Source: Marinihelvus fidelis (GTDB taxonomy: Bacteria; Pseudomonadota; Gammaproteobacteria; Xanthomonadales; SZUA-36). Taken from it: 64,000 nucleotides of DNA. The position numbers were made by a program, and so were the translations under genes. The stretch's first letter is position 1. The number at the start of each line of letters is the position of its first letter. The DNA lies in assembly GCF_008725655.1 (NCBI RefSeq), contig NZ_VYXP01000002.1, forward strand, positions 186,001-250,000, written 5' to 3'. This document shows positions 41,029 through 52,934 of the stretch, piece by piece. The notes under the pieces were generated by a model. The model saw only the letters and a list, made by a program, of their open reading frames with translations. It was not told the DNA's origin and searched no databases.

Positions 41029-41393
41029 GGGGGCGACCTGGCTTCGACGTGGGTCGTGAAACCCGAGGTGCATGCCGAGCTGCAAGCAACTCGTTAAAAG
41101 GTTTGCAAACAAGTTAGTTGCCAACGACGACAACTACGCACTCGCAGCTTAAACACCTGCCGTAGTGCCCTCCGCCCGGAGCTTGCCCGTGAGCACCGGA
41201 GCCCGGGGGTCGACCCACACGGGATCGCGATGAAGCACGCCTGGTGTGGATTCGTTAAAACCTCATCCAGGCTCGCTGGTGGTTTTCCCTCGCCGATCGG
41301 GTAGCCCACAGCTAAATTAATAGATCGACTAAGCATGTAGAGCCAAAGGCGAATCACTTGCGGACGCGGGTTCGATTCCCGCCGCCTCCACCA
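41029..41393 (+). ncRNA. ssrA: Transfer-messenger RNA (tmRNA)
   Basis: The 365-nt gene rescues stalled ribosomes with SmpB. The 5' end GGGGGCGACCTGGCTTCGAC and 3' end CGCCTCCACCA pair in an acceptor stem (GGGGGCG with CGCCTCC, one G-U), and a T-arm GGGTTCGATTCCC lies at 41368-41380. The CCA end is encoded. The tag frame starts at 41120 (GCC resume codon) and reads ANDDNYALAA then TAA at 41150-41152, differing from the E. coli tag by one residue (Asp for Glu). Pseudoknot-forming sequences follow. The 3' end serves as an integration site; see the repeats at 47951 and 52837. Confidence 0.98.
41380..41393 (+). repeat. Attachment-site repeat at the ssrA 3' end (attL of island 1)
   Basis: CGCCGCCTCCACCA, the last 14 bases of ssrA, recurs exactly at 47951-47964. 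Tyrosine-recombinase islands commonly insert in the 3' end of ssrA and regenerate it, so these two copies are the expected ends of an island of about 6.6 kb. Confidence 0.75.
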
Positions 41394-41562
41394 ATATTTT
41401 TTATCTAACGCATTGTTTTAACGAGAATATTTTGAGTTCGATTTCCAGTCCGGCACAGATCGGTCTGGACGGCACGGGATTTACTGTGCTTCCCCCGTCC
41501 GGATCGAGGAAAATCCCATCCCCGTGCTCACCTGGCCCTAACTTTCCCTACCAACCCAATGT

Positions 41563-41607
41563 GGGGGTATTTCTCGGGGTACTTTTGGGCCTCCGATCGA
41601 AATACCC
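41563..41607. repeat. GGGGTATTT-type repeats at the left end of island 1
   Basis: GGGGGTATTT (41563-41572), CGGGGTACTT (41575-41584) and an inverted AATACCCC (41601-41608) lie 170-215 bases inside the island. A matching pair is found at the right end (47881-47902). Paired motifs at both ends resemble integrase arm-binding sites; no integrase gene is present. Apart from these and an inverted repeat (CGGTAGT/ACTACCG, 41680-41701) I see nothing in 41394-41724. Confidence 0.45.
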
Positions 41608-41724
41608 CATCCGACACCGCAGGGCGGCTGACGATTGCCCGCGGGCCAAAGGACAGCGGCGGGTCGCGTTGCTTTATGTCGGTAGTTGCTGACTACTACC
41701 GGCCTTTCGCAACACCATGGCGGC

Positions 41725-41860
41725 ATGGCTCGTTCGCATCGGAAGATCCTGGATCTCGCCGCAGAACACCGCCTTATTCGATCGCGCGATCTGACTGAGC
41801 GCGGGCTGCCCGCTGTTGCCCTGACGCGGCTGGTGCGGCAAGGACGGCTGCAGCTCGAGC
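41725..41860 (+). pseudogene. Truncated AbiEi-type antitoxin (N-terminal helix-turn-helix only)
   Basis: The ATG at 41725 opens a product MARSHRKILDLAAEHRLI, then RSRDLTERGLPAVALTRLVR, the pattern of the N-terminal winged helix of type IV AbiEi antitoxins. After about 45 residues the similarity ends and the frame runs antisense through the META lipoprotein gene, so only the DNA-binding head remains. A 7-bp inverted repeat lies just upstream, where an AbiEi operator would be. No AbiEii toxin is present. Confidence 0.5.
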
Positions 41861-41865
41861 CGCCA

Positions 41866-42675
41866 TCAGAAGTAGACTGCCTCGAACCCGAGCACATCCT
41901 CGTCGTCGCGCAACAGGCGCAGGGTGTCTCCCCGGATGGCGTAGCGATTCGCCTCTCGCAGCGCCGCCAGAAAACGGGATTCGATCTCCATACCTTCCAG
42001 GCAGGCGCGCTGCGTGACCGCAAGGTCGCTGAATCGCAGCATGCCATCGGCCAGTTCGATGCGGCCCGAGTAGCCGTTGCAGCCACCAAATCCCGTGACG
42101 GCGTTGTCACGCTCCAGTAGCTTCAAGTGCGGCTCGCGGTTGGCGCCCACGTGCCGATACATCTCACCGCCGACCGAAACCAGCTTCCAGTAGGTGTTGG
42201 TCAGAGAGGCGTCGGGCTTCGTCTCCGGCCCGCCGACCCGTTTCAACAGCAGGTCGACGGTGTTGCCGGCTCCGCGCGTGATCACCGGATACATCGTATC
42301 GGTGGTGAACAACAATCGGTCCTCTTGCCGAATGACGGCGCGCACGGCGTAACTCATGCGCTGGTCGATCTCTGCGGGGTCATATTTCAGCACGAAGGGG
42401 ATAGGGGGCGCGGACGGGTCATCGATAAGCTGCCGCGCGATCGTGCGGGCGGGCGCGTCGGCGCGCGAGACGTCGAGCAGGGACACCTCGGCCACGGCGC
42501 CCGGGCGGAGCAGCAGCCGCTCACGATAGGAAAGGGTACCTGTCACCTGCTGCATGCCAGCCTCGCTGCGTTTACTGGCGGTAGCGCCCACGCTGGGAGC
42601 CTGCGTGCAGGCCGCGACGAGAATTAGGCCGGCCGCCAGCAACGCTGTCCCGATTGTCTTGAAAACTGGCCGCAT
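41866..42675 (-). CDS. Lipoprotein with YbaY-like and META (HslJ-like) domains
   Basis: The 269-residue product has a lipoprotein signal with lipobox VAAC (Cys about 23). Residues ~43-145 resemble the YbaY-type lipoprotein domain (GTLSYRERLLLRPGAVAEVS, then SYAVRAVIRQEDRLLFTTDT). Residues ~160-269 are a META domain (YWKLVSVGG, GFGGCNGYSGRIEL, LAVTQRACLEGMEIE, FLAAL). Both domain types occur in envelope-stress and adhesion-linked lipoproteins without known catalytic function. It is the first gene inside island 1. A second META domain occurs two genes away as an enzyme fusion. Confidence 0.88.
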   Translation of the reverse strand: MRPVFKTIGTALLAAGLILVAACTQAPSVGATASKRSEAGMQQVTGTLSYRERLLLRPGAVAEVSLLDVSRADAPARTIARQLIDDPSAPPIPFVLKYDPAEIDQRMSYAVRAVIRQEDRLLFTTDTMYPVITRGAGNTVDLLLKRVGGPETKPDASLTNTYWKLVSVGGEMYRHVGANREPHLKLLERDNAVTGFGGCNGYSGRIELADGMLRFSDLAVTQRACLEGMEIESRFLAALREANRYAIRGDTLRLLRDDEDVLGFEAVYF

Positions 42676-42845
42676 CGCCGAATCAGTGCAAATGAGCCAT
42701 AGAAATCAGCCTCGCGAGCTGCCCCATGGCCGCGTCAACCAACTCGCTATCCGGCACGCTCGCATAGCCTTCCATGGCTACGCCCGCAGCCTCGTTTGTC
42801 GATTCCGGTCGCCGTGTACCACGTCAAGTCTGCGCGCGCGAACGA

Positions 42846-44753
42846 TCAGTGGTCGTGCTTGTGGCGCAGGAGCGATGCCAGCCTCCCGGCCACCGCGCGG
42901 TCGAGGTCCGCAGCGTCGCGCGGCGCCTCTTTCAACGGCGCCTCACCTTGCACCGCCGACGTCGTCCGCGGCAGCTTGCCGCCGACCGGCTGCACACGGC
43001 CCTCGAGCATGGTGCCCCACACGTCGATGTCCTTCAGCTTCTCGGGCGCGACCTCGTAGGGGCTCTGTTCGAGAACCGTCAGGTTCGCGTCCTTGCCGAC
43101 CTCGATCGAGCCGACCCGCTGTTCCATCTGGATCGAGTAGGCAGCGTCGATCGTCACAGCCTTGAGGGCGACGTCAAGCGACACCTTGTGCTGCGGGCCG
43201 GCGACCGGCCCTTCGGCGGTGAAGCGGTTGACTGCCGCCCACACGAGCTGCATCGGCTTGGCGGGCGCCATCGGCATGTCGGAATGGAAGGACAGCGAGC
43301 CGCCGTTCTTTACGACGTCGCCATTGGGCACCATGTTGGCCGACCGCTCCGGCCCGATGCCGAGCTTGGCGTAGCGCCCTGCGAGGGCGGTCACGTAGTA
43401 GGGGTTCGAACTCACGATGCCGCCGAGCTCGATCCACTTCGCCACCTGTTCGGGCTGGGCGAAGCCGAAGTGCACGAGCACGGTCCGATGGTCGGTGCGC
43501 GGCTTGCGCGCCATCGCCTTCTCGAACGAGGCGAGCAGCACGTCCAGGCCGGCGTCGCCGTTGTTGTGGATATGGATCTGGTAGCCCGCGTCCCAGTAGG
43601 TCTGGAACATGAAGTCGAAGGCCGGCGGGTCGACGATCCAGGCGCCGTGGTGGCCGTCGGTGTAGCCGTCCTTCATCTGCATCAGCTGGCTATAGATCGC
43701 GCCGTCGGTGAAGAGCTTTACCTGGTTAGGGATATACCAGGTGCGCCCTTTGCCCCAGCTCTCGACCTTGCGGGTCTCGGCGAGCAGGCTCACCGCATCG
43801 TTGGGCTTCATCGCGAAGAAGCTCTTGCCGTCGCCGATGAAACAGTGGTTGAACGGCGTGGCGTCGTCCGAGTACACGGCGTTGACCGCATCCTGCATCG
43901 GCTTGCTCACGAACCCGCCCGGCTCGCAGGCGAGCGTAATGCCGTTGCGGTGGTAGTAGGTCTCGGTGAACTCGAGGCCCTTGCGGAACTGCTCGGCGGA
44001 GGCGATGTAGGGGGCGACTTTGGGCAGGATCGCGAGCATCCCCTGCTCGAAGAAGTGGCCCTTGGGGAGGCTTAGTTGCGCCTGCGCCGACTCGGGCAGG
44101 CCCTTTACCAAAGCCTCGTCGATGCGGGTGAGCTCAAGCGCCGCGTCGTTGAGGAAGATCTCGTGTGCCGAGCGGTGCCAGACGATCACGGGGAAGTTGG
44201 GCGCGAGCTCGTTGAGCATGTCGCGCGACATCTCGCCGTGGAAATAGTGGTGGTAGCCCCAGGTCACGAACGGCGCCTGCTTGTCCTCGTGGGCGGCGAG
44301 CGCCTGTTTCAGGCGCTCCTGGTAGCCCTTCTCGTCGCGCACCGCGGGCGAGAAGCCGTCGATCGCGTCCCAGTCCTCGATCGAGATGACCTTGGTGTTC
44401 ATGGTCAGCGCCGCAAGCACCGGGTGCACGTGTTGCTCGACGAAGCCGGCTATCACGACCTTGTCGTTGAACGTCTTGTCGAGCCGCGCATCCTCGCCGG
44501 CCGCGGCACCAACCTCGGCGCGCGTGCCGACCGCGACGAACCTGCCATCGCGCACCGCGATCGCCTCGGCACGCGGCCTGGCAGGATCCATCGTGATGAA
44601 CTCGCGCGCGGTGTAGATCACCGTCGGGCTGGGTGGCTCGGCGAAATGGCTACCGATATCCTGCAAGGTAGTGGTCTGCGCCGAAGCGCCCCCCATCACA
44701 GTTGCAGCGACCCCGAGCAGCACGGGGAACGCGTGACGAATGCCGAAATTCAT
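42846..44753 (-). CDS. Exported amidohydrolase (YtcJ-like)
   Basis: The 635-residue product has a signal peptide (cleaved near ASA-QTT) and the amidohydrolase-3 layout: DKVVIAGFVEQHVHP with the metal-binding HxH motif (about 118-120), EPGGFVSKPMQDAV, HIHNNGDAGLDVLLA with further histidines, and the C-terminal IEVGKDANLTVLEQSPYEV typical of the composite-domain end. It hydrolyses an unknown C-N (or ester) bond in the periplasm. It is transcribed downstream of a second amidohydrolase with only a 25-bp gap, so they probably form one operon. Confidence 0.93.
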   Translation of the reverse strand: MNFGIRHAFPVLLGVAATVMGGASAQTTTLQDIGSHFAEPPSPTVIYTAREFITMDPARPRAEAIAVRDGRFVAVGTRAEVGAAAGEDARLDKTFNDKVVIAGFVEQHVHPVLAALTMNTKVISIEDWDAIDGFSPAVRDEKGYQERLKQALAAHEDKQAPFVTWGYHHYFHGEMSRDMLNELAPNFPVIVWHRSAHEIFLNDAALELTRIDEALVKGLPESAQAQLSLPKGHFFEQGMLAILPKVAPYIASAEQFRKGLEFTETYYHRNGITLACEPGGFVSKPMQDAVNAVYSDDATPFNHCFIGDGKSFFAMKPNDAVSLLAETRKVESWGKGRTWYIPNQVKLFTDGAIYSQLMQMKDGYTDGHHGAWIVDPPAFDFMFQTYWDAGYQIHIHNNGDAGLDVLLASFEKAMARKPRTDHRTVLVHFGFAQPEQVAKWIELGGIVSSNPYYVTALAGRYAKLGIGPERSANMVPNGDVVKNGGSLSFHSDMPMAPAKPMQLVWAAVNRFTAEGPVAGPQHKVSLDVALKAVTIDAAYSIQMEQRVGSIEVGKDANLTVLEQSPYEVAPEKLKDIDVWGTMLEGRVQPVGGKLPRTTSAVQGEAPLKEAPRDAADLDRAVAGRLASLLRHKHDH

Positions 44754-44778
44754 TTGCCTCTCCTCGGGGCGAAAGCCC

Positions 44779-46908
44779 TCATTCCGCGGCCTGGAAAACC
44801 GCGACGACCTTCCCGTCGCTCAAGAGGGTCAGTTCATCGCCGTGGACATGAAACGCGTCAACGGCCTTGAGCGTCCTCGCGAAGCTGCCTTCGAGTTCCA
44901 TGAGATCCGGTGGACCGGCCATCCGTGTGCTGGCAAGATCGCCCATGGTCACGCTGTCGCGCACCAGGGCGTAAGACCCGGTCAGCCGGTTGACGCCACC
45001 AAAGATGGCGAGCCTGCCGCTTTCGAACAGCATCGTGGGCGGTTTCGCCACGTCGATCTGCGCGCCATTGAGCGCCGTCAGCGTCCAGGTACGGCCACCG
45101 GCGGTGTTCACACCGGCCATGTCGCAGACGTGGGTTGTCCACGAATAGGTCTTATCCGGGTCGGTCACGGTGACATTGAGCGGCGGCAGCTCGCCGGCGG
45201 ACGCCGGGTAGATGGTGCGGCCCTCCTTGATCGTCTCCACGACCCGGATGTCCCTGATCGCCATCGGCTCCACCTGGAGCGGATCCCTGTCGAGGATCAC
45301 GAGATCGGCGAGCTTGCCGACTTCGAGGGTGCCTTTGCTATCCTGTTCACCGTATTGCTCGGCCGCCCATTCGGTCATGGATTTCAAACCCTCATAGGCC
45401 GTTACCCGCTGGCTTGGGCCGATTTCCGCGCCAGCGCGCGACACCCGGTTTACCGCCGACCAGAGCATCATCATCTGGTCGAGGGGCGCGACGACGAAGT
45501 CCGTGTGGTTGGTCGGGCGCAGGCCGGCGTCGATCGCATCGCGCATCGGGCTGATGTAGCTGCCCTGTTCCTTGCCCCGATTCGCGATGTGCGTTTCGGC
45601 GAAGTAGAAGGTGTGCAGGGTGTAGAAAGACGGGCGGACCTTGTATTCGACGAACTTCGGGATCTGGTCCTTGCGCATGAACTGGGTGTGGATGGTGGTG
45701 ACGTTCCACGGCCGGTCGTGGTTGCCGTCGCGGGCATACCCGTAGGCGTCGAGGAACATATCGATTGCGGCATCGCCATTGGTGTGAACGATGACCGGCA
45801 CATTGAGGTCGTAGACCTTTTTCATCGCCTTGTTGACGAGGTCCTGCGGGAAGGTGGGCTCCCCGGTCCAGTCCTTCTCGCCGGCCGGCCCGCCCTGCAA
45901 GTAGGGCGTGGTGAAGAATGCCGTACGGCCCTGCGGCGAGCCGTCCAGAGTGATCTTCACGCCGCCGATCTTGAAGCGCTTGTCGTACCTGCCCCAGTCA
46001 CTGACCGGAAACTCGGCGAGCACCTTGTCGAGATCGGTGATGAACGGGTAGGCGACTACGTCGATGATGTTCGCGCCTGCATCGGTGGCGCGCTTGATCG
46101 TCTGTAGCTGACCGAGATGTGTGGCTCCCTCATGGGCGGTCGTCATTCCAGCTTCGGCATAGAGCATCTGGCCCGCTCGGGTCCATTCAATCTCCTGCTG
46201 CGCGGTCAGCGGCTCGGATTGCTCGAAGACCGGCAGGAAGGCCGTCTCCATGATCAGGCCCCAGGGCTCCTCGGTGCCCGGCTTGCGCACGATCACGCCA
46301 CCCGGCGGTGTCTCGGTTTCAGCGGAGATCCCGTACTTCTTCAGGGCAAGGCTGTTCATCACCGCGCCGTGCATCGAAACGTGGTCCACCCGCACCGGGT
46401 TGTCGGGAAACGCGGCGTCCAGGTCGTCGCGGTTTAGAAGCCGACCGTCCGGCATGACGGAATCGTCATACCCGTAACCGATGATCAGTTCGCCCTTCGG
46501 AATCTTCCGTTCGGCGGCATAGCGCTTCAGCTCGGCGATGATGCTCGATACGTCCTTCCCCGGTCCGGACGGCGGCGGATAGAGCTTGGCCTGGTTGGCG
46601 ACCAGCAGCGAGTTTATGTAATGGCCGTGGCCATCGATGAAGCCGGGAAGCAAGGCCTTTCCCTCGAGGTCGACGACCCTCGTCGCCTCTCCTCGCATCG
46701 CCAGTGCCTGGTCCTTCGCCCCGGCGAAGGCGATCCTACCGTCCTTGACCGCGAGAGCCTCCACATAGGCCGGCTCGTCACCGACCATCGTCAGGATGCG
46801 TCCTCCGTGGTAAAGGAAATCCGCCGCTTGCTGTGCGTTTACCACGACGGGCGCGGCACCCGCGAGCACGAGCATCGACAGCGCCAGCCGTCGCATCAAC
46901 CTTTTCAT
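44779..46908 (-). CDS. Exported amidohydrolase fused to a C-terminal META domain
   Basis: The ATG at 46908 gives 709 residues with a signal peptide (cleaved near VNA-QQAAD). The amidohydrolase-3 core has LPGFIDGHGHYIN (HxH), VHTNGDAAIDMFLDA, and LEVGKLADLVILDRDP near residue 570. The last ~105 residues are a META/HslJ-like domain (WTLTALNGAQIDV, GVNRLTGSYAL, DLASTRMAGPPDLMELE, FARTL). I know of no common enzyme with this fusion. Together with the adjacent exported amidohydrolase and META lipoprotein it suggests a shared envelope function. The open frame extends further upstream, but the signal peptide marks the start. Confidence 0.92.
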   Translation of the reverse strand: MKRLMRRLALSMLVLAGAAPVVVNAQQAADFLYHGGRILTMVGDEPAYVEALAVKDGRIAFAGAKDQALAMRGEATRVVDLEGKALLPGFIDGHGHYINSLLVANQAKLYPPPSGPGKDVSSIIAELKRYAAERKIPKGELIIGYGYDDSVMPDGRLLNRDDLDAAFPDNPVRVDHVSMHGAVMNSLALKKYGISAETETPPGGVIVRKPGTEEPWGLIMETAFLPVFEQSEPLTAQQEIEWTRAGQMLYAEAGMTTAHEGATHLGQLQTIKRATDAGANIIDVVAYPFITDLDKVLAEFPVSDWGRYDKRFKIGGVKITLDGSPQGRTAFFTTPYLQGGPAGEKDWTGEPTFPQDLVNKAMKKVYDLNVPVIVHTNGDAAIDMFLDAYGYARDGNHDRPWNVTTIHTQFMRKDQIPKFVEYKVRPSFYTLHTFYFAETHIANRGKEQGSYISPMRDAIDAGLRPTNHTDFVVAPLDQMMMLWSAVNRVSRAGAEIGPSQRVTAYEGLKSMTEWAAEQYGEQDSKGTLEVGKLADLVILDRDPLQVEPMAIRDIRVVETIKEGRTIYPASAGELPPLNVTVTDPDKTYSWTTHVCDMAGVNTAGGRTWTLTALNGAQIDVAKPPTMLFESGRLAIFGGVNRLTGSYALVRDSVTMGDLASTRMAGPPDLMELEGSFARTLKAVDAFHVHGDELTLLSDGKVVAVFQAAE

Positions 46909-47065
46909 CCTCTTTCCCCCTTGGACCACCAGCCCCCCATACCGCCCTATGCGGGAGCGAGGCTCTGGCTCATTGATTGAAAGCCGCTTGACAACCTCCG
47001 AGCGCGAAAAATCGCGATACGCACCGATCGGCCAGGTCGCAGCAACCACACGGTCGATTCCTGCA

Positions 47066-47490
47066 TCAAGGCGTGAACTCAAACGGATTGATGACTTCGA
47101 TGCCGCAGTGCTCGAAGTCGAGGACATTCCGGGTCGCTATCGCCAGATGGTCGCGACGAGCGATGGCGGCAATCTGGCCATCAGGCACGCTCATCGGGAG
47201 CCCGAGTTCCCTGCGATCACCCATCAGCTCGCCATAGAGGCGCGCCGCGGGTTCGTCGTAGCTGAGCACCCGCTGATCAAAAGCCAGGGCAACAAATCGT
47301 TCGAATCGCTCGCGCAGGCCGGATCGGCGTTTGCCATCCGGCAGGATACGAAGTCCGTAGGCGATCTCACCGATGGTAACGGCTGAGAGTAAAGTTTCTC
47401 GGAGGGCTGACCGTTCAGCCAGGCCAGGACGGCTTCCGCCGGCCGGCTCTTCATCAGCTCTGAAACGATATTGGTGTCCAGCAGGATCAT
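47066..47490 (-). pseudogene. VapC/FitB-type PIN-domain toxin, frameshifted
   Basis: The N-terminal part (from the ATG at 47490) reads MILLDTNIVSELMKSRP, then LAWLNGQPSEKLY, the usual PIN start with the first catalytic aspartate (Asp5). Near 47398-47402 the frame must change by one base to continue as LLSAVTIGEIAYGLRILPDG and on to SVPDGQIAAIARRDHLAIAT and INPFEFTP. Homologues read ...LYLSAVT... there, so one base appears to have been lost. The complete protein would be about 140 residues. Unless this is a sequencing error, the toxin is dead. Its start overlaps the antitoxin stop. Confidence 0.8.
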
Positions 47491-47720
47491 TCGGCCAGGT
47501 CCAGGGGCTCGTGCGCTGTCCTTTCAGGGAGCTGCAGATCGACACCGTGCTTCAGGCCAAAGATCCGAAGCGCGAGATCGCCGAGGTTTTCTGGAGCGCA
47601 GACGGCCTCCTTCAGGATCCGACGCGCCTCCTCCTCCATCGACACCCCATGCCGTGCGGCGCGGATCCGCAACCGCGACAGCGTCTCGTCGTCGAGTTTT
47701 CGGACACTCAAGCTCGCCAT
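47487..47720 (-). CDS. FitA/VapB-type ribbon-helix-helix antitoxin
   Basis: The 77-residue product starts MASLSVRKLDDETLSRLRIR, then AARHGVSMEEEARRILKEAV, the FitA/StbC-like ribbon-helix-helix pattern, with a C-terminal toxin-binding tail. The ATG at 47720 was chosen by alignment. It overlaps the toxin gene by four bases. A palindrome 46 bases upstream is the likely operator. With the toxin broken, the antitoxin survives as an orphan regulator. Confidence 0.85.
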   Translation of the reverse strand: MASLSVRKLDDETLSRLRIRAARHGVSMEEEARRILKEAVCAPENLGDLALRIFGLKHGVDLQLPERTAHEPLDLAE

Positions 47721-47765
47721 GATCGACTCCATAGATTTCCACAACACCAACGGCACAGATGCTAG

Positions 47766-47790
47766 CATATGCAGGCATTGCTTGCATATG
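47766..47790 (-). promoter_or_regulatory. Palindromic operator of the VapBC/FitAB-type operon
   Basis: CATATGCA (47766-47773) and TGCATATG (47783-47790) are perfect inverted 8-mers separated by 9 bases, upstream of the antitoxin gene. Ribbon-helix-helix antitoxins of this type bind such spaced palindromes. Confidence 0.65.
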
Positions 47791-47880
47791 GCAACAACAA
47801 CGGCGTTTTCAGGTATCGCGAGTGTCGGAGGAGCGCTAAGATCGAGACGAATTAGGCGTTAGGACCAGTCGATGCGTTCT

Positions 47881-47902
47881 GGGGGTATTTATGGGGGCAT
47901 TT
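47881..47902. repeat. GGGGGTATTT-type repeats at the right end of island 1
   Basis: GGGGGTATTT (47881-47890) and GGGGGCATTT (47893-47902) repeat the motif found at the left end (41563). They sit about 50 bases before the right attachment repeat. Confidence 0.45.
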
Positions 47903-47950
47903 CTGGCGTTTAGCACCGCAACCAATTGATTAATAAGGCGATGTGATTGT

Positions 47951-47964
47951 CGCCGCCTCCACCA
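47951..47964 (+). repeat. Right attachment-site repeat of island 1
   Basis: CGCCGCCTCCACCA is identical to the last 14 bases of ssrA. It is followed by CTCAAG, the same six bases that follow the more decayed copy at 52873, so this site is both the right end of island 1 and the left end of island 2. Confidence 0.75.
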
Positions 47965-47978
47965 CTCAAGCACCAGTG

Positions 47979-48009
47979 GCCGCCGTTGCGAAATCAACGG
48001 CGGCTTTCT
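47979..48009 (+). terminator. Terminator following the island 1 attachment site
   Basis: GCCGCCGTT (47979-47987) and AACGGCGGC (47996-48004) form a perfect 9-bp stem followed by TTTCT on the plus strand. It lies 15 bases after the ssrA-end repeat, where an ssrA terminator would be expected. Confidence 0.65.
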
Positions 48010-48031
48010 AGTTCAGTATTTTTCGAACGAA

Positions 48032-50053
48032 TCAAGGCACCGTGGAGGTCAGGATGACCCTTCCCCTCAACACCTTGGCTATCTGATTCATGTCTCGGCG
48101 GCGCGCCGCTTGCGATTGATCACCAAAATCGCCCGAGTGGCCTTCGACTTTGATCGTCCAGCGCGCCCCACTCTCCGGCGAAGACACCGAGGCTTCGACC
48201 CAGTCGGCGCTGATATCTTCGAAACGGGGCCAGGACTCTACTTGCCATCCCTCAGGCACATTCAATTCGACTTCGCCCAGTAGCCGGGTCTGTTTAGCTG
48301 AACAGCAACGAGCCGAGCGAAAATCCGGCCCAGCCTCTTCATCTGACCACCGCGAGAAATCGTCATAACCTTCGAGTGGAATGTCGAGTGAAACCGCCAA
48401 GGCCTTCAGCAAGCCACCAACCGCATAGCGATCTCCCGATAATCGAGCCGCCGGAAGGTCAATGTAACCGGACATAACCAGGCTGGCCGGAGATGCTAAA
48501 AACTGATCCGCCGCCATGTACATAATTTCGTCAGGCACCAGGCCCGAAACGGTCATCGAGAACCGTTGCTGGATGATTCGCCGTGACCGATTTGTCAGTC
48601 GCCCTGAGGCCGCATCGACATGTTGGCCCACTAGTCGGACGAGCTCTGCTCCTCCGGTAATTTCCAGTCTGAATCGTGCTTTTTCAAACCCGTCCATGTC
48701 GACCGTCAGACGGGCATGTTGTTGGCTCGGCGGCGTACTGACTTCGATCTTGAACAGTCCGCCGCCCTCGCCCAGCCAGAGCCCCTCACTTCCGAGTAAA
48801 CCATAGGGAGTTGCACCCAGTAGCGCGATCGGGTCCGTTGCATCGATCAACACGCTGCCCCGACCTGGCCCCTGTTTCAGCCGGGTTGACTCTTCAGGCA
48901 TAACGCCATCATGGATCGCAAGAACGACGTGATTAAAAATCGAAACGGTCGGCGGTCCTGAGTAAGCCAGATATTGCTGATCCAGGCGCACAAGGACAGG
49001 TGTCGATGCAACGCCGATCTGTTCCAGCAAGCCGTGCAGGAGCAGGGTTTTTGCCTTGCAGTCCGCGCTCATGGTTCGAAGCACTTCCGTGGGATGATCA
49101 GGTGTATACGCTCCGGCACCCCAGGCAATGTTCCGATAGGTCAGCGACTGCACAAATGCCGTCAAAGCCGCGATCTTTTCGTCGCGACTTTCCAAATGCC
49201 CGCTAAGCTCATGCGCCAGGTTCGGATAGTCCGGACCGCCGTGATCTGCCTCCTCAAGTAACGCCTGATCAAACAGCGCCCGCACCCGCAAGGCCAGGTC
49301 CGGCCACGATTGCTTCGCGACATCACCGCGCATAACCGTCACGATCGGGAAGGCATCGAGTGGAGAACGCCGCCACGCATCAGCGCGGGCATCCGCTGGA
49401 GAGGCAGACGGCAACCCCCATAACTCCAGGCCACCGGTCGTGACATCTCGCACAGCCCCATCGACAGGATTGTAGAAGAGACGAACATTTGAATCGGCGG
49501 TGACCTTGAAGCGCTCAACAGAAAGTGTCTCCAGGGGAGAAAACACTCGAGTCGACGGAAATTCCAGGCGGTCTGTCAATGTCCAGCTTGCGGCCACGAC
49601 CCGTCCCGGCGCGACTGCGTCAGTGGAAATGACAAGACGCCGCCCGCCGGTGACTAACGGTCCCGAGAGATCCGGAACGTCGACACTCTGGCCCTTCAGT
49701 TTCTGATTCTTCCAGGACCGCCGTTTCTGCACCCAAACCATCGGCCCGCTCAGCGCTTGCTGAGTGTCGTCATAGGGCAACAAGATGCTCAGCGACTGCT
49801 CTTTGAGGTCGTTCAGTCGCCATATTTTTCGGTATGTGAACGACAGTCGACCCTGCTCGTTCAGGGCAACGTGAATTTCACTACTCAGGATCGTCCACCC
49901 GACTTGGTCAGAACTGGGGACAGGCGCGTGGGACGAAACGTAGTTGATTTGTTCCTTCACCCAAGTCGGTGGACGGGCCGAGTGGGCCTTTACCGGCAAC
50001 CCCAACAACACCAGGATCAAAACCCAGGCGATCCGGCATGGATACTGGGTCAA
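48032..50053 (-). CDS. Secreted transglutaminase-like protein (DUF3857 type)
   Basis: The product is exported: a TTG at 50053, overlapping the upstream stop as TTGA, gives 673 residues with a signal peptide (WVLILVLLGLPVKAHSA). An N-terminal DUF3857-like beta domain (about 45-250) is followed by a transglutaminase-like domain with a plausible Cys332 (SADCKAKTLLLHGLL), His375 (FNHVVLAI) and Asp404 (LIDATDP) triad, and a beta-rich C-terminus. The frame is open further upstream, but that would put 49 residues before the signal. Such proteins are common in Bacteroidetes and some proteobacteria; substrates are not known. Confidence 0.85.
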   Translation of the reverse strand: MTQYPCRIAWVLILVLLGLPVKAHSARPPTWVKEQINYVSSHAPVPSSDQVGWTILSSEIHVALNEQGRLSFTYRKIWRLNDLKEQSLSILLPYDDTQQALSGPMVWVQKRRSWKNQKLKGQSVDVPDLSGPLVTGGRRLVISTDAVAPGRVVAASWTLTDRLEFPSTRVFSPLETLSVERFKVTADSNVRLFYNPVDGAVRDVTTGGLELWGLPSASPADARADAWRRSPLDAFPIVTVMRGDVAKQSWPDLALRVRALFDQALLEEADHGGPDYPNLAHELSGHLESRDEKIAALTAFVQSLTYRNIAWGAGAYTPDHPTEVLRTMSADCKAKTLLLHGLLEQIGVASTPVLVRLDQQYLAYSGPPTVSIFNHVVLAIHDGVMPEESTRLKQGPGRGSVLIDATDPIALLGATPYGLLGSEGLWLGEGGGLFKIEVSTPPSQQHARLTVDMDGFEKARFRLEITGGAELVRLVGQHVDAASGRLTNRSRRIIQQRFSMTVSGLVPDEIMYMAADQFLASPASLVMSGYIDLPAARLSGDRYAVGGLLKALAVSLDIPLEGYDDFSRWSDEEAGPDFRSARCCSAKQTRLLGEVELNVPEGWQVESWPRFEDISADWVEASVSSPESGARWTIKVEGHSGDFGDQSQAARRRDMNQIAKVLRGRVILTSTVP

Positions 50054-52245
50054 TTCACAGACCTCACAAGCACAGGAGCGTTGGTCAATGCCTCTAGCTC
50101 CCGGAAAAACGCCGCTACCTCGAAATAATCCTGGACAGGCAGCACATAGGGCTGTGTCATGGACAGCATCAATACCAGGTTTCTCGCGGTGCCATCCCAT
50201 TCGCGCCGGAGTTCAAATTGCAACCCGGTTGGCCCCGAACGCTTCACCGGCGGCATCGACTCCGGCACCCATCCTTCGGGCAATGTCCATTCCATGGTCA
50301 CGTTGACTTCGCCACCCGGCAACCAGACAGGATGACGCCGGGTTTGTGCGACCAGGAGGTTTTCGAACAAGCTGACTCGCGGAAACGAAGGTAGTAATCG
50401 CTCGCCGTCCATTTCGAAAATGTCTGGCCGCCACTCAACATCACCAGCAATCCTGTAAGGCTCTGCCAAGTTGTCCCTCGGATCCGAGAGCTCGACTTCA
50501 GTTACGGCGCCTTGCTCCAACCCCATCCATGCTTTAACCCAAAGGTCGACTGCCAAATCCCGCCGCTCTTGCAACTCATCTGCAGTGAAGTTTTCATTCG
50601 GGTAACCCATCAGCCATCGCATCTTGTTATCGGCGCTACCGAGAAAACGTCCACTGAACTCAAGCGTCTGTTCCTCGTTGTCGATAAATTCAGGCATCTG
50701 TGTGCGAAAGGTGACATCGGTTCGGTCGAGCACACCAACATCCATAGGCATCCGCTCCAGTTCCCAGTTCGCTTCTTGCTCCGAAGGCTCCCGAAAGAAC
50801 ACGCCACCCAGGTAGCGCTCGTCCATGGACCGGGGCGTGGCCATCAGGTCATGTGGCTGAATATAGCGCCGCTGACCACCCGGGCCGGTCAACTCGAGAT
50901 GGAGTTCGGAAGAATATGCGTCCCAAGTGTCAAATACGGGAACAAGAGGAACGGAATCTCGCGACATGAGCATGGCCATGCGACTGTCCATTCCGGCGCG
51001 GTCGAACACCCACTTTGCGTACCAGAACAACGGCAAGCCAGCGCCCCGACCTTGTTTCTTCAACCGGTCCAGCTTGGTTCGGTGCTTGGCTTCAGAATCC
51101 GGAACGACCTGTTCGCGAACATAATTAAAAATCCAGTCGACCTTCTCGTCCCAGGAAATGTCTTCGGGAACCAGGGCGTCCATATCGTCTGACCGTTCTC
51201 CGCGACGGTTATTCATTACGAAGGAACGGTAATTGGCGTCCAGGCTGCGCATCGACAGTTGCAAGGCTTCCATATCTCCCGCCAACGAAGGTGATACCGC
51301 CTGGAGCCCCAGGGAATCAATGCTGGCCAGAGGCTTGGTTGAAACGGGTGCAGATGCCCAGATCACATCATCACCTTCTTCCGACTCTGGAAATGGGGTT
51401 TCCGATGGCATCAGGTAAAGGTGATCTCTCCAGTCACCGCTGGTCATTTGCTGAGGCAGGATCCCAAGAAGCGCGCTCGTCCGGGATTCAGGTGGCGCGA
51501 ACAACTCCGGCTCATCTACGGGAAGGTTTTCAGCCGTCAGGTGCATGTCGAGCTGGTTCGACATCCTGACAGTCATGCCCTCCGGCACCCTCGCAAGCAG
51601 AAACGGCACCCAGGCGAACTGGCCCGTACCGAGTAGAATCGACTTACCCAGGCCAATCAGGCGTCCCTGGGAGCGGACCTCCAGCTTTCGGACCGGAAAC
51701 ACCCCCTCCAGCCGGATGGTTTCGAAACCCGGAAGGTTTTTGGACGTTGATTCCCAGGCGAGATCAAGAACGGCTCCTGGTTCCACTCGGGGAAAATTGA
51801 CAGTACGGAGTAAATCGTCGGCCTTGCCTTGAGCTCGAATATCAAGATTACGGATATCCTTTTCCGGGTCGACCAGATGAATCGTTCCGTCCGCGCTAAT
51901 CGTCCTGCCCCGAATCTCACCAATGACCACATTCGATTCGTCACCAAAAAATGTGTGCTGTTTGAGCACTTCAACACCACCCTTAGCGCGAACCCAGAAA
52001 CGCGCAACATGTCGAGTCGTGACTTCGCCCTGGACGCTCCAGTTTGAAATTTGAGATTCAAATTCGATTTCATGCAGCAGGACCACCACCCCGGCTTGCC
52101 GCTCTTCGGGTGTGTTGGCGACCAATTCTCCAGTATCAGGAGGGGGCGGAAATGGGGAGTTCTCGTTTGAGGCAAACAGATTGGTTGCAAGACTCGTGAG
52201 AGCAATCACCAAGGCCGCTGTGCCGACATGAATACGTTTAATCAT
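50050..52245 (-). CDS. Secreted DUF3857-type paralogue without the transglutaminase cysteine
   Basis: The ATG at 52245 gives 731 residues with a signal peptide (cleaved near LFA-SNENS) and an AGGA-type ribosome binding site. The layout matches the downstream gene: N-terminal beta domain (TTRHVARFWVRAKGGVEV, GIEIRGR-like strands), a middle helical domain and a C-terminal beta region (WTLPEGWVPESMPP). At the place of the catalytic DCK the sequence reads KQGRGAGLPLFWYAKWVF, so the nucleophile is gone. It is probably a non-enzymatic partner of the coupled downstream protein. GC content looks lower here than in the core genes. Confidence 0.83.
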   Translation of the reverse strand: MIKRIHVGTAALVIALTSLATNLFASNENSPFPPPPDTGELVANTPEERQAGVVVLLHEIEFESQISNWSVQGEVTTRHVARFWVRAKGGVEVLKQHTFFGDESNVVIGEIRGRTISADGTIHLVDPEKDIRNLDIRAQGKADDLLRTVNFPRVEPGAVLDLAWESTSKNLPGFETIRLEGVFPVRKLEVRSQGRLIGLGKSILLGTGQFAWVPFLLARVPEGMTVRMSNQLDMHLTAENLPVDEPELFAPPESRTSALLGILPQQMTSGDWRDHLYLMPSETPFPESEEGDDVIWASAPVSTKPLASIDSLGLQAVSPSLAGDMEALQLSMRSLDANYRSFVMNNRRGERSDDMDALVPEDISWDEKVDWIFNYVREQVVPDSEAKHRTKLDRLKKQGRGAGLPLFWYAKWVFDRAGMDSRMAMLMSRDSVPLVPVFDTWDAYSSELHLELTGPGGQRRYIQPHDLMATPRSMDERYLGGVFFREPSEQEANWELERMPMDVGVLDRTDVTFRTQMPEFIDNEEQTLEFSGRFLGSADNKMRWLMGYPNENFTADELQERRDLAVDLWVKAWMGLEQGAVTEVELSDPRDNLAEPYRIAGDVEWRPDIFEMDGERLLPSFPRVSLFENLLVAQTRRHPVWLPGGEVNVTMEWTLPEGWVPESMPPVKRSGPTGLQFELRREWDGTARNLVLMLSMTQPYVLPVQDYFEVAAFFRELEALTNAPVLVRSVN

Positions 52246-52836
52246 TGTTATTTTCCTACGTGGTGCCACCCCCCCAAAATACACGCGCCACAATTCGTGC
52301 GGGACGAAATCATGACCATGTTCAGAACGAGTCAGGCGGGGTCGTGACGGACGTTCTGCAAAGTGTGGAACGATCGATACCCAACCCTTTGTGTTGAGGT
52401 CAAAAATCGCGACAAGTATGACGCGCTCGTGCCTGTCTCTCAAAACCATATTCTGACAAGCGGTACCGGTATCGTCGAAGTTCACATCGGGAATCATGTC
52501 AGTTATAACCAAATCAACACCAACGTTGCCTCAATGCCACTACGGCCGCTGGATAAGACAGACCCGCACACCACACGATGCGATACAAAATCAGCCCACC
52601 CCAATTGACGCAGCAATGGCGCGGTTCAGGGTTGGTCAGCCACCGCCAGTTGCCTTCCCTGCTCTTCTGAGAACCCCGCCCTTAAGCCGATGAACTAACT
52701 GGTTTCCAGTTACACGTCGGCCTCGATGGCCACACACCGATTCTCCCTTCAGCCAACCATGGACAACAACTTGGCAGTGCGGCGCCGGGCGCCGCGCAGT
52801 CATTCAACGTGGGGTTCCGCAAATACGCTATCCACG
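52246..52836. other. Non-coding right part of island 2
   Basis: About 590 bases between the DUF3857 genes and the decayed ssrA end. I see no convincing gene, RNA or strong repeat in it. Short open frames exist on both strands but none has a ribosome binding site or recognisable product. Confidence 0.5.
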
Positions 52837-52873
52837 CTTGCGGATGCAGGTTCAATTCTCATCGCCACCACCA
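52837..52873 (+). repeat. Decayed copy of the ssrA 3' end (right end of island 2)
   Basis: These 37 bases match the last 37 bases of ssrA (41357-41393) at 30 positions without gaps, including TGCGGA, GGTTC and the final CCACCA. Six of the seven differences are transitions. It encodes only a T-arm and part of the acceptor stem, so it is not a functional tRNA or tmRNA. It is best read as the original, older attachment site. Confidence 0.75.
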
Positions 52874-52880
52874 CTCAAGA

Positions 52881-52906
52881 AAAAGGCCCCGTTTCCGGGG
52901 CCTTTT
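52881..52906. terminator. Bidirectional terminator, possibly the ancestral ssrA terminator
   Basis: AAAAGGCCCCG and CGGGGCCTTTT form a strong stem with A-run and T-run flanks. It lies eight bases after the decayed ssrA end on the plus strand, and 29 bases after the nuclease stop on the minus strand, so it can serve both. Confidence 0.85.
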
Positions 52907-52934
52907 GTCGTTATGGGCGAGTGCCGAGTGACCG

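Follow-up and report, generated by a model that had tools for sequence, protein, structure and literature searches.

Tandem islands and hitchhiker elements at ssrA

Genomic islands located in tandem at ssrA have been described in Dehalococcoides, 15 of them without an integration module, and the authors suggested that the module-less islands are cis-mobilizable elements (PMC3146451). Hitcher elements, such as CALINs and MITEs, have been reviewed separately (PMC11389934). The locus described here lies in a window of 64,000 nucleotides (contig C2:186001-250000) from the 3.43-Mb genome of Marinihelvus fidelis (G000). Like the Dehalococcoides islands, its two units are found in tandem after ssrA, each bordered by a repeat of the ssrA end. 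Whereas Dehalococcoides uses the serine recombinases DsiA/DsiB, the window element has arms similar to those of P4-type tyrosine integrases, and another species carries one integrase-less unit at precise secondary sites. Islands of the P4 type (PF13356) at ssrA in other genomes (L115, L119 and contig C22 of G302) share the same target end and, in the case of L115 and L119, have G-rich arm repeats, but their integrase gene is beside ssrA, a position taken in the window element by an AbiEi remnant. As in CALINs and MITEs, recognition sites are present without an enzyme, making the element helper-dependent; however, these sites are of the ssrA-type att kind, whereas CALINs combine attC sites with integron integrases and MITEs depend on transposases. 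This kind of element is already known; what sets the present case apart is that it recently moved between species and into secondary sites. Our main reading, to which we assign a probability of roughly 0.78, is that the region consists of two nested ssrA insertions, the inner one being a non-autonomous, cis-mobilizable (hitchhiker) element moved by a P4-type integrase in trans and the outer one being older.

Repeats of the ssrA end and the order of the two units

The integration target, ssrA, is located at 41029–41393 on the forward strand (ARAGORN; Rfam RF00023, 218 bits). A sequence-only reading of the window had proposed that the final 14 bases of this gene recur exactly at 47951–47964 and that a decayed 37-base copy with 30 matches is present at 52837–52873. 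Both repeats were confirmed. The 14-mer CGCCGCCTCCACCA occurs without mismatches only at 41380–41393 and 47951–47964, with no third exact site in the window, and the distal copy (52837–52879, forward strand) matches 30 of the 37 ssrA-end bases, or 36/43 when the following CTCAAG is included, compared to 26/43 for the highest-scoring unrelated 43-mer on both strands of the window. The ssrA-end repeats are thus far above chance expectation. Six of the seven differences in the distal 43-base copy are GC-to-AT transitions, a bias that fits decay.

The same reading had placed CTCAAG and then a strong terminator after both distal copies. The hexamer indeed follows both of them, within CCACCACTCAAG at 47959–47970 and 52868–52879, and does not follow the intact ssrA. 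The terminator part stood for the nearer copy, where the hairpin scan recovered a terminator-like hairpin at 47978–48005 (forward strand), which in the absence of the inner element would come next after ssrA; the second hairpin, GGCCCCG-TTTC-CGGGGCC followed by TTTT at 52885–52902, is visible, with its T-run below the threshold of the scan. Since the latter lies between the end of the ssrA relic and a convergent nuclease gene, it is not island-specific.

The CTCAAG at 47965–47970 (forward strand) is a piece of the left 43-base repeat of the outer unit, separated from ssrA by the inner element. Excision of 41381–47951 in silico fuses the ssrA end to CTCAAG and yields CTTGCGGACGCGGGTTCGATTCCCGCCGCCTCCACCACTCAAG, the 43-base repeat (37 ssrA-end bases plus CTCAAG) from which the above identity to 52837–52879 was calculated. 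Because this repeat is continuous only once the inner unit is removed, the outer unit appears to be the older one, its left repeat having received the inner unit. The nested order, with the outer unit arriving first and the inner unit second, is supported by this arrangement.

The region is specific to the genome of the window

Comparison with G001, a genome of the same genus with an ssrA that is 92% identical, shows that both window flanks are syntenic, covering the genes on the left side of ssrA as well as the genes from position 52930 onward, with the nuclease gene being 94% identical. Between ssrA and the nuclease gene, G001 has 1.33 kb, in which a 386-aa Fic-family ORF is flanked by two terminators, and this interval contains none of the island genes of the window and no ssrA-end repeat. 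Because G001 is syntenic on both flanks with only 1.33 kb between them, 11.5 kb at ssrA is specific to the genome of the window. In a DNA search of 38 other genomes of the family, no copy of the 11.5-kb region was found, with weak similarity to the amidohydrolase alone detected in four of them. The DNA after ssrA varies across the family. A relative in which ssrA directly joins CTCAAG and the terminator at 52881 had been predicted; this empty junction was not seen, because G001 carries other cargo there, with a different junction. The proposal of two stacked islands, in which the outer one was inserted first, its outer end decayed and the second island settled next to ssrA, is supported by the 43-base repeat together with the G001 synteny. 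In having an intact ssrA end, a displaced fragment at the far end and no counterpart in a close relative (G001), the locus corresponds to a genomic island of the Islander type, at a tDNA.

Ends and gene content of the inner element

The inner element (41381–47951, forward strand) is 6.57 kb long and lacks an integrase: none was detected in 41394–47951 by Pfam analysis of the genes or in the ORF list, the nearest PF00589 genes being elsewhere in the genome. Its ends are fixed to the base by two insertions in Lysobacter penaei, described below. The left copy of the core corresponds to the final 13 bases of ssrA (41381–41393, forward strand), and the right copy of the 14-base ssrA end (47951–47964, forward strand) represents attR. 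A 27-bp direct repeat following the pattern TGGGGGTATTTNTNGGGGNANTTNTGG occurs near each end, 169 bp inward from the left one and 45 bp inward from the right one. The left arm-type repeat, TGGGGGTATTTCTCGGGGTACTTTTGG (41562–41588, forward strand), is conserved in the left ends of the related elements of G301 and G302, and the right one, TGGGGGTATTTATGGGGGCATTTCTGG (47880–47906, forward strand), 81% identical to the left one, is conserved in the right end of G302. The pattern TGGGGGTATTTN{0,4}GGGG has only two sites in the 3.43-Mb genome, which are the two arm-like repeats. We refer to them as putative integrase sites by resemblance only.

The first ORF (41686–42117, forward strand) has at its N-terminus a remnant of an AbiEi-type antitoxin (PF13338, 30.7 bits; AbiEi by PADLOC), whereas G301 and G302 carry the whole AbiEi gene at the same place. 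All other genes are on the reverse strand. They encode an exported lipoprotein with YscW and META domains (42675–41866), an exported amidohydrolase (Amidohydro_3; 44753–42846), an amidohydrolase (Amidohydro_3) with a C-terminal META domain (47127–44779), all three assigned by Pfam, a PIN-domain (FitB/VapC-like) toxin (47545–47066; PF01850, 24.7 bits), whose gene is frameshifted in the window according to the ORFs, and a FitA-like ribbon-helix-helix antitoxin (47768–47490; Pfam PF22513, 65.7 bits). In L. penaei, the PIN toxin is intact (141 aa; PF01850, 51.2 bits). The earlier description of the islands as carrying toxin-antitoxin remnants and exported proteins, with no housekeeping genes, is borne out by the ORF list and Pfam, which revealed neither an integrase nor a housekeeping gene among the island contents.

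With attL and attR sharing a common core (the 14-base copies, the core being confirmed at the L. penaei junctions) and with integrase and transfer genes absent according to Pfam and the ORF list, the inner element corresponds in these respects to a cis-mobilizable integrative element (CIME). It does not correspond to a P4-type integrase island, there being no PF13356/PF00589 integrase beside attL. The two precise L. penaei insertions imply past function of the putative att sites. The inner element was not found on plasmids or phages, where only weak matches to the amidohydrolase, VapC and AbiEi genes were obtained.

Two copies in Lysobacter penaei

The entire inner unit is present in the draft assembly of Lysobacter penaei SG-8 (G300), in which a 6572-bp contig (L118) aligns over its whole length to 41382–47951 with 99.92% identity, the two sequences differing by three substitutions and two one-base indels. 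As judged by DNA search, L. penaei lacks the outer unit. Two contig ends in this assembly carry the left end of the element and two carry its right end, each with an overlap of 127 bases. Because two left and two right flanks overlap by 127 bases, the element is present as two integrated copies, and in terms of assembly the overlaps are the pattern of a two-copy repeat at k=127. The same overlaps with four flank contigs led us to reject the contig as an excised circle. Joining flanks C8+C2 and C12+C10 restores an open frame in each case, whereas the cross-joins break the frames. The former encodes a predicted 420-aa FAD-dependent oxidoreductase and the latter a predicted QEGLA-motif/DUF1704-type protein, both named from sequence.

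There is no tRNA or tmRNA at either L. penaei insertion place. The empty sites read CCGCGAGTTCGAGGCCC|GTCGCCGGCATGG and ACGCGAGTTCGGCCTCC|ACCGCCTCCACCA, versus ACGCGGGTTCGATTCCC|GCCGCCTCCACCA in ssrA, and match the final 30 ssrA bases at 20/30 and 24/30 positions; of the background 30-mers, which included the junctions themselves, 11/119,237 reach 20 matches. Both insertion points resemble the T-arm/acceptor of ssrA. The ssrA of L. penaei itself ends with GGTTCGATTCCGCCCACCTCCACCA, changed at the crossover. Its presence at 99.9% identity within two different genes of L. penaei shows that the inner element has moved recently.

Related elements in other genomes

A search for an ssrA end followed by an arm-like site in 84,980 species yielded seven loci, one of which is the L. 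penaei contig and another (L116) a chance match. Loci L115 (Candidatus Nitrotoga) and L119 (Burkholderiales) have GGGGGTAT sites between ssrA and the gene for a PF13356-domain integrase, and L120 has the same appearance but is interrupted by a contig end. In L121 and L117, intact AbiEi genes come after a homologous left end. The left end of the inner element is also shared by G301 and G302 at 78–80% identity. In G302, this left end is continued by AbiEi, AbiEii and additional putative toxin-antitoxin pairs, and the right end, including GTGTGATTGTCGCCGCC, is found on a separate contig. As far as these sequences go, the element ends are conserved while the cargo differs, two relatives having the same ends and different cargo. 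Contig C22 of G302 carries a P4-type integrase gene directly at ssrA with arms GGGGGCAAC, not GGGGGTATTT; the GGGGGTATTT sites by other integrases of G000 or in G302 form no arm pair. Among viral contigs, there was no relevant match to the arm pattern, the sole match (L114) being in a phage coding sequence.

Two further loci have repeated ssrA ends. On contig C17 of G302 (L166), ssrA-end copies 176 bp apart are followed by AbiE, ParDE-like, VapBC-like and HigBA-like genes and a 1031-aa ORF, probably representing an ssrA array rich in toxin-antitoxin pairs (AbiE by Pfam). In G023 (L174, 4549–7016), a 2.45-kb unit whose only gene encodes a lipoprotein amidohydrolase separates ssrA from a second 24-base ssrA end, after which comes a start homologous to that of the first unit; these are tandem single-gene cassettes at ssrA, with cargo of the same type as in the inner element of the window.

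The outer unit and short ssrA-end units

The outer unit (47965–52879) would be an older ssrA-end insertion with a decayed distal copy. It encodes two large exported proteins, both weakly DUF3857-like, on the reverse strand at 50200–48032 (Pfam 14.9 bits, below the cut-off) and 52512–50050. No homologue of the second one was found at E≤1e-20 in 41 genomes, in a search that lacked a positive control and is therefore weak. No integrase is present in the outer unit, which may be an island remnant. Its status as an insertion is supported by one decayed repeat and by its absence from G001; because many members of the family carry short ssrA-end units, the distal repeat alone is not proof of an island.

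Such short units were found just after ssrA at L045, L044, L049, L050, L054, L102 and L105 (genomes G024, G009, G002, G011, G047 and G041). They are 145–189 bp long, and each comprises a terminator, an ssrA 3' end and two hairpins that carry GGA in the loop and show compensatory changes in their stem bases. G024 has tandem units, and G047 has the start of a second one. The units could bind CsrA/RsmA. They recall the rtT repeats of Escherichia coli tyrT; searches of Rfam and E. coli with the short unit returned nothing credible. Three different tmRNA genes (L045, L044, L058) are present in the G024 assembly, which has 6% contamination and possibly represents mixed bins.

The tmRNA gene is also interrupted in three genomes of our set. 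In L005 (G005), L019 (G012) and L022 (G022), ssrA is split in the T-loop after GGTTCGAT by an insert of roughly 280 bp, which against the Rfam group I intron scores 29.9 bits in G022 and 23 bits in G012, below the gathering score. By analogy, the G005 insert may be group I intron-like, and group I introns are already known from tmRNA genes (PMC11915505).

Mechanism and alternative explanations

Insertion was conservative and targeted T-arm-like sites, and arm-like sites occur at either end of the element; these features point to a tyrosine integrase that acted in trans and came from an element now gone. The data show the ends, the nesting, the two precise insertions, the near-identity between species, the lack of an integrase in the element and the arm-like sites; excision as a circle, an integrase acting in trans, its assignment to the P4 type and transport between cells are our inference. 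In the proposed mechanism, a P4-type tyrosine integrase supplied by another element would excise the inner element as a circle and insert it through conservative recombination of GATTGTC|GCCGCCTCCACCA with a target similar in shape to the ssrA T-arm/acceptor. Where ssrA fits, the element would insert there and rebuild the gene end; in L. penaei, where the ssrA end is different, it entered two look-alike sites in protein genes. An integrase with matching arms was not found in G000 or G300, and a circular form was not observed. L. penaei has no PF13356 integrase; the PF00589 genes it does have are XerC, XerD and three more that show no relationship to the G000 ones. XerC/XerD were set aside as the mover: both hosts have them, and the core presumably does not resemble dif. 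With so little shared sequence, insertion into unrelated genes cannot be ascribed to homologous recombination.

Could the inner unit be the dead remnant of an ordinary island that no longer moves, its integrase having been deleted? The lack of an integrase, the truncated AbiEi and the frameshifted PIN toxin gene in the window all agree with such a history. However, a 99.92% identical copy occupies two precise non-ssrA sites in another species, where the toxin gene is intact. Since a near-identical copy is found at these sites, the integrase-less form itself has moved recently, and the dead-remnant explanation is strongly disfavoured and very unlikely. The helper might instead have been lost later, with a larger autonomous element carrying an integrase entering both genomes and leaving the same 6.57-kb remainder. 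Although the helper is now missing from both genomes, identical ends and content at three sites would require three identical deletions, and the arm and core sequences are intact at both ends of a unit that is colinear throughout; we give this scenario very little credence.

A different challenge concerns the repeats, which might be short tandem ssrA-end units (about 147–189 bp: terminator, hairpins, ssrA end) rather than island borders. At least six genomes of the family have such units, so an island is not proven by ssrA-end copies alone. Yet, the window copies are devoid of the conserved hairpin sequence of the unit, and the borders of the inner unit are fixed independently by L. penaei, rendering this explanation highly improbable for the locus as a whole, while a short-unit origin could still hold for the outer distal copy.

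Implications

Many islands without an integrase have been dismissed as dead. The hitchhiker element that, in our preferred reading, is nested within an older ssrA insertion is found with exact borders at one ssrA and two secondary sites, in two species and with 99.9% identity. This integrase-less unit has therefore moved recently. With the ends, targets and candidate helper type defined, mobilization in trans becomes directly testable. L. penaei also illustrates how such an element behaves where its preferred ssrA end is altered: protein genes with an ssrA T-arm-like sequence are broken. Tentatively, and with odds somewhat short of even, we suggest that integrase-less elements sharing conserved ssrA-specific ends, exchangeable cargo and toxin-antitoxin genes form a family, which would spread between bacterial species entirely on borrowed tyrosine integrases and tolerate secondary sites in protein genes. 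If true, such a family would be the tyrosine-integrase counterpart of MITEs or CALINs.
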